Shown: positions 17,894 to 30,146 of the stretch, one piece after another
Layout: the number at the start of each line of letters is the position of its first letter
Numbering within the stretch: position 1 is the stretch's first letter
Source of the DNA: a virus
Strand: one strand, 5' to 3'
Length of the DNA stretch: 30,146 bases
IMG/VR virus record: IMGVR_UViG_3300021381_000092
Location: 1 to 30,146 of that record
Translations under genes and position numbers: made by a program
The notes under the pieces: model-generated
What the model was told of the DNA's origin: nothing
Seen by the model: the letters and a program-made list of their open reading frames with translations, nothing else
Databases searched by the model: none

Positions 17894-17924
17894 CAAATAT
17901 AGTACTTTTTTATTACTATCCAAG
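17894..17924 (-). promoter_or_regulatory. Bacteroidota-type promoter of the recT-endolysin group
   Basis: Read on the - strand, CTTG (17924-17921) and TATATTTG (17901-17894) are separated by 19 bp. The -7 box is a perfect match. The -33 element lies within the last codons of the primase gene, so the promoter is embedded at the end of one gene and drives the next. Transcription would start about 15 bases or fewer before the A-rich leader of the gene at 17870. Confidence 0.75.
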
Positions 17925-20612
17925 TGCGTCGTCCCATTTAATTATCACACCCCGCGAACGGTGGCCCTTCGCAAAGGTGGTGTGAGGCGTGGGTGCGCTT
18001 CCTGGTATTCTGCTCAACACTTTACCGTGGGACTTACTCCACGGTGTATCGCGTAGAATGTTTTTAATGCCGTCCGCCGTGTTGCTTATTATGAACGTGC
18101 CGCCTTCTATCTTAATACCCAACCTAAGCAGTCGCATTTCGCTACCGTGAACGTCTGCGCCACCGCCGCCCATACAGTTCGAAATAAGTTCACCCACACT
18201 TCGTTCAACGGTTCGCGGGTAGTCCTCACCAAGTTCAACGCGGACAATATTCTGCATAATTTTATCCAGACATTTTTGCTCGTCGTTAATTTCTTCGCTG
18301 CTTATCTCGTCGCTCCACTCGTGTTGAAGCAGCCATTTTTCAGCGTCCTTTTGTTCTATCACCTCATCGCTAACCAAGCTATAAGCAGCCGCCGCAAGCG
18401 GTGCGACTTGATCACGCGCCCGGCTTGACTGTAATATTTTGCGCCCAGCACGTTCAAACACCGCGATGTTTTCAATGATAACGGGCAACAGCTTCAGTGT
18501 CCTTGCCCTTAGACCTCGCACCCAGTCTTCTGTCATTTCATCTTTCACAATACCTTGCAGCTCGACGAAGCGTTTTGCTTGTGCAGTAGAATTGTCCTCG
18601 TTCAATGTTAGCAAAGTGATACGCGAAAGATCCGCCGCCCTCATTGCCTGGTAAACAATCGAAAGGAAGCAGAAGCAACTACGAATGTTGAAGCTGCGCG
18701 ACTGGTGCGCCGTCGTTCCCTTGTAGACCTTGGACCCGCTTTCGCTGGAAGCAATACGCATGAGCGTCATAATCTGTTCGATACGCTCGTTGTCTTTCTT
18801 GGTGTCGCTGTCAATCTCGTCGAACACAACGGGCAGCGCGTCACTTGCTAGCGTTTGTCTTAGTCCCGCCTCTGTCGTTTCACCGATAGCGTTGACCGTT
18901 GCGTCACCTAGTACGCGGTCAATTATCTCGCGCTTGATCCATGTCTTTCCAGCACCACGCGGACCCGTCACCCATACGTGAGGGCGCCAATCCAGCACGC
19001 CACCAATAGGCGCAAGCACTAGCCAGCCCGCCAATAAGTAAGCGTTCACGGGACGTTGCCAGCTCACCAATTTAAGGGCGTCAATTAGCCGTGAGCTTTC
19101 GCGTTTAAGCAATGGACTACCAACAGCGAAACCGGTTTCATGGTCTAGTTGATAAATGTATTTCGAAGCTAGCTGGTCGGTCGGTATTGTCCGCCCGTCA
19201 ACAATCAAATGGCTTCCAGCGTGTATCACAATACGGCTTTCGTCCATCCATGCGCCTCGCCCTCGTATGCGGTCAACGTTATACAATCCACTGCGAATTG
19301 ATATGTCGGTAAACGCGTCGGCTGCTTGGTCCCAATCAACACCGCCTTTTGCTCCGGGGTGTCGACTTTCCCAATGGTTCAACGGCGCTATCTGCATGAG
19401 GTTCAATTTTGTCAGCTTTGACGGCGTGAACGTGTGTACCTTCTTGGCACGGTCGTCGTACACGAAATGCTCGACGCTGCCGTTGCTGTTCATTGCATAT
19501 CCTAAGTGTCTGTAATACGCTCCCTTGTGCGGCTCCGGTTCCGGTGCTACGGGTGCTGGTGGCGTAGGTTCGGGCTTTGTTTTCTTTTCCGGTGGCTTTG
19601 GGTACGTCGTAATGCGGTCGCCTTTTATCTTCAGCGCGCCCTCCTTACCATGCAAGTTGAAATGAATTGCACGGTCAGCGTCGTTAATCCATTCTTTTGG
19701 CGTGGTCCAGTGCTGAAACTCGTATTTGTTCGCTTTAATGAACGCTTTTGTTTGTTCTTCGTTCCATCCTGTATCGGCAAAATCCCAATGTTCGGGCGCG
19801 TCTTTTGGTGCGCCAATGTACTTGCTTTGTCCTCCCGTCACCAGGTGAATGTAATGCGCTGCCGCGTGGCCTTGCCAGTCGTGGTCCGGCCAGTATATTT
19901 TTTTACGGTCAATAAGCGGGTCAAAGTCGCAGTTGATCACGCCGTTTGCACCTCCTACCCACGTCGTAACAATGAATGACGGAAGAACTTGTTGCAGTGC
20001 TTCCGCTGTCTTCTCACCTTCAACAATGATAATGCTAGCTTTTTTGTCTGCTTCAATACGTTTAAGGTTGTAAAGCGGTCGCGGGCGTGGGTGTCCTTTG
20101 AACTTCCATTTTTCAACGCCGTCCTGGATGCACAACGTGTACGGCACAACTTCTTTGCCATCCTTCGTGTCGTAGCGCAACACGTAGAACGTATCATTGT
20201 ACCGCCATACTCCAGACGGTTCGCCGTGCTTGTAGTGCTTGAAGTCGGGCTTCGGACTGTCTTCGGATAGGTGCTTTCGGTAGTCCCATTTCGGGGCTTT
20301 TGGCGCTTGCGCTTCGATGGTGACGGCGTTGTTTGTCAGGGCGCTATCCGAGGCTATAATTTTCGCCGCTTCCTTCACGTCGACGTTGTTGTACTTCATC
20401 ACAAAGTCCAACGCGCTGGATCCTTCACCACACGCCAAGCACTTCCATAGCTGCTTGTCTGGTCGCACGCCTAAACTGGCTTTTTTGTCGTCGTGAAACG
20501 GACACACGCCTTTGTATTCTTGGCCTTTTTTCGTCAGCGGTATAGCGCCGCCAATCAGTTTAACCAGGTCGGTCGTTTCGTTGATCTTCTTGAAATCAAT
20601 TTGCTCGTTCAT
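17916..20612 (-). CDS. primase-helicase (CHC2, TOPRIM and AAA/SF3-like)
   Basis: An 898-residue replication protein with three parts. A CHC2 zinc finger uses Cys37, His40, Cys58 and Cys61 (VCPFH...WKCLACGEG). A TOPRIM-like region has Glu198 (IIVEGEKTAE) and the acidic pair in WPDHDW (about 241-246). After a proline-rich linker (about 338-365) comes an ATPase with Walker A GPRGAGKT (550-557) and Walker B VVFDEID (595-601), followed by an arginine-containing segment (DLSRITLL). It would unwind DNA and lay primers for the host polymerase, since no phage DNA polymerase is present. Only 23 bases separate it from the methyltransferase gene. Confidence 0.9.
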   Translation of the reverse strand: MNEQIDFKKINETTDLVKLIGGAIPLTKKGQEYKGVCPFHDDKKASLGVRPDKQLWKCLACGEGSSALDFVMKYNNVDVKEAAKIIASDSALTNNAVTIEAQAPKAPKWDYRKHLSEDSPKPDFKHYKHGEPSGVWRYNDTFYVLRYDTKDGKEVVPYTLCIQDGVEKWKFKGHPRPRPLYNLKRIEADKKASIIIVEGEKTAEALQQVLPSFIVTTWVGGANGVINCDFDPLIDRKKIYWPDHDWQGHAAAHYIHLVTGGQSKYIGAPKDAPEHWDFADTGWNEEQTKAFIKANKYEFQHWTTPKEWINDADRAIHFNLHGKEGALKIKGDRITTYPKPPEKKTKPEPTPPAPVAPEPEPHKGAYYRHLGYAMNSNGSVEHFVYDDRAKKVHTFTPSKLTKLNLMQIAPLNHWESRHPGAKGGVDWDQAADAFTDISIRSGLYNVDRIRGRGAWMDESRIVIHAGSHLIVDGRTIPTDQLASKYIYQLDHETGFAVGSPLLKRESSRLIDALKLVSWQRPVNAYLLAGWLVLAPIGGVLDWRPHVWVTGPRGAGKTWIKREIIDRVLGDATVNAIGETTEAGLRQTLASDALPVVFDEIDSDTKKDNERIEQIMTLMRIASSESGSKVYKGTTAHQSRSFNIRSCFCFLSIVYQAMRAADLSRITLLTLNEDNSTAQAKRFVELQGIVKDEMTEDWVRGLRARTLKLLPVIIENIAVFERAGRKILQSSRARDQVAPLAAAAYSLVSDEVIEQKDAEKWLLQHEWSDEISSEEINDEQKCLDKIMQNIVRVELGEDYPRTVERSVGELISNCMGGGGADVHGSEMRLLRLGIKIEGGTFIISNTADGIKNILRDTPWSKSHGKVLSRIPGSAPTPHTTFAKGHRSRGVIIKWDDALG

Positions 20613-29352: not shown

Positions 29353-29523
29353 TTATTTTAGGTTAGACAGTGTTATTCCGAACTTATTGATACAAGTAAG
29401 TGCAAGTACTTGCATCGAAGGGCGCAATGTTTCCTTCCAGTTGTTTTCCATTTTATCACGAAGGTTAATGAACTGCTCCTTTGTCATTTCAGAGGTGTTG
29501 TTTCTTAGTTCTGTAGTTGTCAT
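29353..29523 (-). CDS. 56-residue hypothetical protein, first gene of the early transcript
   Basis: A small, mostly helical protein (MTTTELRNNTSEMTKEQFIN at the start, LRDKMENNWKETL in the middle). The frame continues upstream into the promoter, so the ATG at 29523 is used; it follows an A-rich leader (AAACAAAACGAAACGAA) about 28 bases from the -7 box. As the first gene after the presumed early promoter it may be a regulator or host-directed factor, but no helix-turn-helix or other motif is recognisable. Confidence 0.65.
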   Translation of the reverse strand: MTTTELRNNTSEMTKEQFINLRDKMENNWKETLRPSMQVLALTCINKFGITLSNLK

Positions 29524-29606: not shown

Positions 29607-30013
29607 CGACCAGAAATCGACCAGTTAATACATTGATAATTAGCAAGTTAATGAAGGCCGTCCAGATTCTGTGCGCGCTGGTCGCTGTTTTGGTCGCACA
29701 ACTTTGTAGGTTTCATAGGGTCTACAGCCCAAAATCGACCAAACGACCAGAAAATTCGGAAAAATATACACTGTAGTAGAACACTTTCGAGAAAAAGGTA
29801 CTATCAAAAAAACTCATTGCAGCACCTCCCGTATAGTAGTACTTTTCTTAAAATAGGTTTGGTTTGGTCGCTTTTCGCCTGTAACGCCCGCCAATGCTGA
29901 AAAGTTAAGCGACCAGAAACGCGACCAGAAAAAACGCCCCGGTCGCAAAAGCTCTACAACCCCCGTCAATGCTACAAACCTAATCGACCAGAAATCGACC
30001 AAAACGCGACCAG
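29607..30013. repeat. CGACCAG/CGACCAA heptamer cluster (iteron-like)
   Basis: CGACCAG or CGACCAA occurs at 29607, 29618, 29736, 29744, 29910, 29922, 29985, 29996 and 30007, and in inverted orientation (CTGGTCG or TTGGTCG) at 29678, 29690 and 29874. Close pairs are usually 11 or 12 bp apart, about one helical turn. A looser 75-bp repeat is also visible: CAATGCT at 29892 and 29967, each followed by a heptamer at 29910 and 29985. The surrounding stretch has no convincing gene. The arrangement suggests binding sites for a replication initiator or regulator. Confidence 0.75.
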
Positions 30014-30035: not shown

Positions 30036-30146
30036 TCGCGCGCGATCGCGCGACACCCGCCCACGCGTGTGCCTGATGCGCGCACGTCACGCGCCCGCAC
30101 ATGAGGCGCACATGAGGCGCACGTGACGCCCACGCGTGTGCCTGAT
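30036..30146. repeat. GC-rich direct and inverted repeats at contig end
   Basis: A 20-base sequence ending GTGTGCCTGAT occurs at 30058-30077 and again at the very end, 30127-30146, 69 bp apart. Between them ACATGAGGCGC is repeated in tandem at about 30099-30120, followed by an ACGTGACGC variant. A 14-bp perfect palindrome (CGCGCGATCGCGCG) lies at 30039-30052. The region is far richer in G and C than the rest. The contig ends exactly in a repeat copy, so the array may be longer in reality. Confidence 0.8.

Follow-up and report, generated by a model that had tools for sequence, protein, structure and literature searches.

PICI origins of replication always consist of two sets of iterons arranged around an AT-rich region, immediately 3′ of the initiator gene (PMC6092414). 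SaPI Rep recognizes its iterons via its C-terminal domain, and the C-terminal domain of Cch2 binds direct repeats downstream of its own gene (PMC7581432). Few metagenomic phages have a known origin of replication. Here, we analyzed a 30,146-nt stretch of viral DNA (the window), which comprises bases 1-30146 of a 30435-base record classed as linear, and considered how a heptamer array near its right-hand end might function. Judging from the sequence and its comparison with other loci, we read this array as an iteron-type replication origin recognized by the phage's own 898-aa primase-helicase, with a probability of roughly 0.72.

The window contains 21 copies of the heptamer CGACCA(G/A), that is, CGACCAR, where 7.49 would be expected, and none of 100 shuffled sequences reached 21. 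Positions 29607-30013 hold 12 of these copies (nine on the + strand and three on the − strand) and a 13th, degenerate site (CGACCG); the other nine copies are scattered over the remaining 29.7 kb at approximately the chance rate. The expectation for 407 bp is 0.10, which corresponds to a Poisson P of ~2e-21 for 12 copies of a motif that was picked post hoc. As a control for the choice of motif, 7-mers were compared by their highest count within 410 bp; CGACCAG itself came first, with eight copies versus three to five in 40 Markov shuffles, and the array is the window's sole 8-mer cluster with at least five copies. These counts, including the genome-wide comparison with shuffled sequence, bear out the preliminary description, which had noted about 12 copies in some 400 bp, both orientations, and few isolated copies elsewhere. 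Its claim of a helical, 11-bp spacing is upheld only locally. The gaps between neighboring copies are 11, 60, 12, 46, 8, 120, 46, 12, 63, 11 and 11 bp, and five of the 11 measure 11-12 bp (null mean 0.67, p ~2e-4), but phasing across the whole array was not significant (p=0.19); the spacing is 'helical' only within the pairs and the triplet. What had been described as an overlying 75-bp repeat is actually a shorter element that occurs twice. The features to which we refer are the following.

357-2317, + strand: TerS-like gene and TerL gene, the late unit across the array once the ends are joined
17916-20612, − strand: CHC2 primase-helicase, 898 aa, the proposed reader of the iterons; C-terminal domain at residues ~772-898
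29353-29523, − strand: first early gene, adjoining the array, 56 aa, no assigned function
29607-29624, + strand: iteron pair 1-2 (CGACCAG twice, 11 bp apart), closest to the early gene
29678-29696, − strand: iteron pair 3-4 (CGACCAG, CGACCAA), 12 bp apart
29736-29750, + strand: iteron pair 5-6 (CGACCAA, CGACCAG), 8 bp apart
29751-29863, no strand: iteron-free AT-rich stretch of 113 bp, a candidate DNA-unwinding element by base composition
29864-29870, − strand: iteron 7 (CGACCAA)
29883-29919 and 29958-29994, + strand: 37-nt element, two copies 81% identical and 75 bp apart, both of which terminate in an iteron
29910-29928, + strand: iteron pair 8-9 (CGACCAG twice), 12 bp apart
29940-29946 (~29942), − strand: degenerate iteron CGACCG, the 13th site
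29985-30013, + strand: iteron triplet 10-12 (CGACCAG, CGACCAA, CGACCAG), 11 bp apart

Two iteron groups thus sit on either side of the 113-bp stretch, which is 67.3% AT versus a window mean of 51.2%; just 0.5% of 113-bp windows are equally high, and the length of the iteron-free gap alone is not significant (p=0.16). The array is intergenic, the overlying ORFs being unsupported and starting with TTG or GTG, and Rfam detected no RNA family in the array region. A secondary motif shared by the window and locus L021 (CGCCAATGC) was also considered, and it showed no enrichment in other arrays.

The left-hand genes of the window, on the + strand, encode TerS-like, TerL, portal, head and tail proteins. 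The right-hand early genes, on the − strand, encode an endolysin, RecT, the primase-helicase, a methyltransferase, a VRR-NUC nuclease and a phrog_16 helicase, with one exonuclease gene on the + strand amid them. The 289 bases past the window contain an N-N gap and then the start of an HNH-like gene on the + strand, which runs off the record. The preliminary description had placed the array between the early and late units; the strand of the HNH-like, TerS-like and TerL genes agrees with this, but the closure of the genome is a step that we infer for a record classed as linear. If the ends join, the array would lie between the divergent early (−) and late (+) units. The NN gap at G000 30127-30168, at the window end, is flanked on both sides by CACGCGTGTGCCTGAT, which is also present at 30062-30077, and it probably marks two contigs joined at a repeat in the GC-rich, repeat-rich region 30030-30170. 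Bases 1-58 of the window look like an indexing adapter of the Illumina type (aagacggcatacgagat...gacgtgtgatcttccgatct), so that the record's left end is either an artefact or a fixed DNA end. GC skew, a check proposed earlier, was set aside as evidence for an origin: the skew tracks coding direction, and the third-codon-position skew is ~0 on both arms.

This setting bears on two other roles that such repeats could have. The terminase and HNH-like genes are on the same side of the genome as the array, where a packaging site (pac or cosB) bound by the small terminase might be sought, but the HNH-like gene intervenes between the array and terS, and the arrays of relatives described below follow the primase gene. 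A parS-like partition array would agree with repeats in a non-coding region, but no ParA/ParB-type gene was recognized among the early proteins searched. We found no support for either reading, and consider packaging very improbable and partition extremely so.

Might a phage regulator bind the heptamers and thereby control divergent early and late promoters? The array's place between the divergent units, with the first iteron pair close upstream of the first early gene, would suit such an operator, as would two TAnnTTTG elements (TAGGTTTG) inside the array, at 29854-29861 (+) and 29975-29982 (−) in convergent orientation, which we take to be Bacteroidetes-type −7 boxes. However, promoter elements of this type are not above chance, their count being reached by 39 of 100 shuffles and by 35 of 200 in a second test. 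It would also be unusual for an operator to comprise 13 sites spread across 407 bp with an AT-rich core in their midst, most relatives' arrays are located 3′ of the primase gene rather than at a promoter, and no repressor was recognized among the early proteins searched. We regard an operator array as unlikely; an operator role in addition to that of an origin is possible.

The proposed initiator has a PHROG primase match of 1e-110 and a CHC2 zinc finger, and its architecture comprises an N-terminal DnaG-type zinc finger, an AAA+ helicase of the Cch/SaPI-Rep kind and a C-terminal domain. Residues 365-898 were modeled with AlphaFold2 from an alignment with 17 sequences from the loci of this analysis (pLDDT 85, pTM 0.71). 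In the PDB, the model matches the helicase SCCmec Cch best (5dgk, E 1.1e-9, 12% identity); next come D5-type helicases and a structure of PriRep1 with dsDNA (7pds, 1.7e-5). The D5-type matches reflect only the common AAA+ helicase fold. The C-terminal domain is modeled confidently (pLDDT 93) and gave no match in the PDB (best E 0.17); a DNA-binding role is presumed for it. When the helicase half was compared by profile with three DUF927/Cch-HTH proteins, the result lent no support, the profiles being shallow. The primase-helicase gene and the array are 9 kb apart, and no array was found 3′ of this gene in the window or in the related loci L003 and L104.

Is an array a regular companion of such proteins? 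The module exonuclease, helicase, VRR-NUC and primase-helicase recurs across many viral contigs, and dense arrays of a different octamer lie directly 3′ of the primase-helicase gene in L006, L008, L013, L021, L018 and L101. We scanned 234 loci with a detector that requires a 7-mer in at least six copies within 420 bp and in both orientations, and obtained 94 arrays versus ~8 in shuffles; the two iteron regions annotated in P4, which served as a positive control, were both recovered. In CHC2-primase loci, 14 of 37 arrays start between −150 and +500 bp from the 3′ end of the gene, where a uniform distribution would place 1.7. The cleanest test uses another sample, 24 loci selected solely for homology with the helicase half of the window protein. 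A mixed-orientation array lies ~0-480 bp 3′ of the stop codon in 19 of these 24 loci, or in 8 of ~12 phage types, the loci not being independent (eleven represent one phage type) and two types having only five copies; the sample yielded 39 arrays versus 5 in shuffles. Arrays thus co-occur regularly with this helicase subfamily, and the repeat sequence varies from phage to phage. Five members of the subfamily (L179, L180, L285, L293 and L270) had no detected array. The genes that precede arrays encode VapE-domain proteins in L006, L013 and L021, and CHC2-DUF927 proteins with a 'Cch helix turn helix' domain in L130, L146 and L160.

Arrays are also found away from the 3′ end of the gene. In L280, the array is 5.4 kb from the primase-helicase gene. 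Arrays are present in four named phages of the family. Three of these arrays lie in divergent intergenic regions like the window's: CGGTTACC in Pseudomonas phage Jeremy, GGATACC in Bordetella phage PHB04 and TGTAACAC in Acinetobacter phage Acjo_20, all three of which encode primase-helicases homologous to that of the window. In the fourth, Synechococcus phage S-H1, the array follows the primase-helicase gene on its 3′ side. The named phages gave no near DNA match to the window. The contigs of the two closest relatives, L003 and L104/G001, break at the array site, and no relative with sequence spanning this site was found.

Other repeats were observed in these loci. A GTAGTAA array of 10-11 copies lies ~2.6-3.0 kb before the primase-helicase stop codon in L289 and L290, near the 5′ end of the gene. 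At 6730-6950 of L104 (a 43% relative), there are tandem coding-like repeats (GCTGCGTGGGA...) unrelated to the iterons, and the ~60 bp tandem repeats at 1-340 of L007 (TCTGCGTTCGCTCACGTCTGCCGCCGGGTTAAAGTTGCCT...) are probably a coding repeat.

The window's motif itself occurs with another type of initiator. L088 (7060-7280) and L092 (2325-2520) contain CGACCAG/A arrays (CGACCARAA) of 7-8 copies, often 12 bp apart, within an initiator gene of the DnaD/lambda-O kind, which is followed downstream by a gene for a DnaB-type helicase. This is a lambda-O-like arrangement, a helicase loader with a DnaB helicase, that has its motif in common with the window; in lambda O-type systems the iterons lie within the initiator gene, whereas the window's array is intergenic. 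When the exact CGACCARAA pair pattern was sought in viral contigs, mostly single pairs were found, in about the number expected by chance, and only L088/L092 had a clear array; the matches in L079 were coding or scattered. The L088 initiator has no homologue among the window proteins, and the shared motif may be a coincidence or reflect a shared recognition helix. Because the L088/L092 array lies inside a DnaD/O-like initiator gene, a winged-helix loader can pair with CGACCARAA. The window's array could then be an iteron origin read by some other protein, either a host factor or an unrecognized initiator or helicase loader similar to lambda O, and several early proteins of the window are indeed without assignment. 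However, besides the missing homologue of the L088 initiator, no loader-requiring DnaB-type helicase was recognized in the window, where the primase is fused to the helicase. We consider another reader of the iterons quite unlikely.

Several observations argue for an origin read by the primase-helicase. First, arrays lie near the 3′ end of the gene both in the helicase-half sample and in the CHC2-primase loci. Second, the arrays of Jeremy, PHB04 and Acjo_20 occupy divergent intergenic regions in phages with homologous primase-helicases. Third, the ori/crr layout of P4, the Cch and PriRep1 fold matches and the iterons flanking a 67% AT core point in the same direction. The reading is weakened by the 9 kb between array and gene, by a C-terminal domain that lacks a PDB match and by the array-less members of the subfamily. 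The preliminary description had offered a replication initiator, a partition system or a regulator as the binding partner; the comparative evidence favors the initiator, whereas the early proteins searched contain no recognizable partition gene.

We propose that the primase-helicase would recognize CGACCA(G/A) through its C-terminal domain, assemble on the iteron groups flanking the AT-rich stretch, load on and melt this 113-bp center, and then prime and unwind outward in both directions, so that replication would start at the array. Iterons bound beside the first early gene could also serve to repress transcription or to switch it. More tentatively, we speculate that a large and so far barely described group of tailed phages are self-initiating replicons similar to P4 and SaPIs, their phage-specific iterons being read by a fusion of CHC2 primase and Cch-like helicase via a C-terminal domain without a solved relative. 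The array would lie at the 3′ end of the gene or have moved to the early/late junction, where it might also set the early-to-late switch. The motif would vary in concert with the C-terminal domain, so that the origin would be private to each phage.

A mixed-orientation octamer array around an AT-rich core, beside a primase-helicase gene or at a divergent junction, should allow origins to be predicted from sequence, and it also pairs each predicted origin with its likely initiator. Should this pairing hold, nature would offer dozens of combinations of iteron and DNA-binding domain from which to work out a recognition code. PICI-like anatomy appears here in records that contain a tailed phage or are part of one, named phages included.

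How closely does the locus resemble the known systems? P4 (NC_001609) has short, 8-bp iterons in both orientations with a pair spacing of 9-14 bp, similar to those of the window. Its annotated type-1 iterons lie in ori, where the early alpha and late sid operons adjoin, a junction like that of the window, and both alpha and the window protein are fused primase-helicases. In contrast, a second iteron region of P4, crr, adjoins the 3′ end of alpha, whereas the window has no second CGACCAR cluster; the iteron sequences also differ, and the likeness is one of layout and fused architecture. With SaPI/PICI elements, the window shares several short iterons of mixed orientation, in two sets flanking an AT-rich stretch, and a predicted helicase fold resembling Cch and PriRep1 (E 1.1e-9 and 1.7e-5, respectively). 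The SaPI/PICI origin, however, is immediately 3′ of the initiator gene and not 9 kb from it, and the window, unlike these elements, belongs to a tailed phage that has virion genes of its own. SCCmec Cch (5dgk) is the closest solved structure to the helicase half, but Cch lacks the fused DnaG-type primase of the window protein. Because the window departs from the PICI definition in the location of the array, and from P4 in the missing second region, our claim is that the array works like these origins, not that it is one of them. By analogy, the array in the window probably works in the manner of satellite phage P4 and the staphylococcal SaPI/SCC elements.
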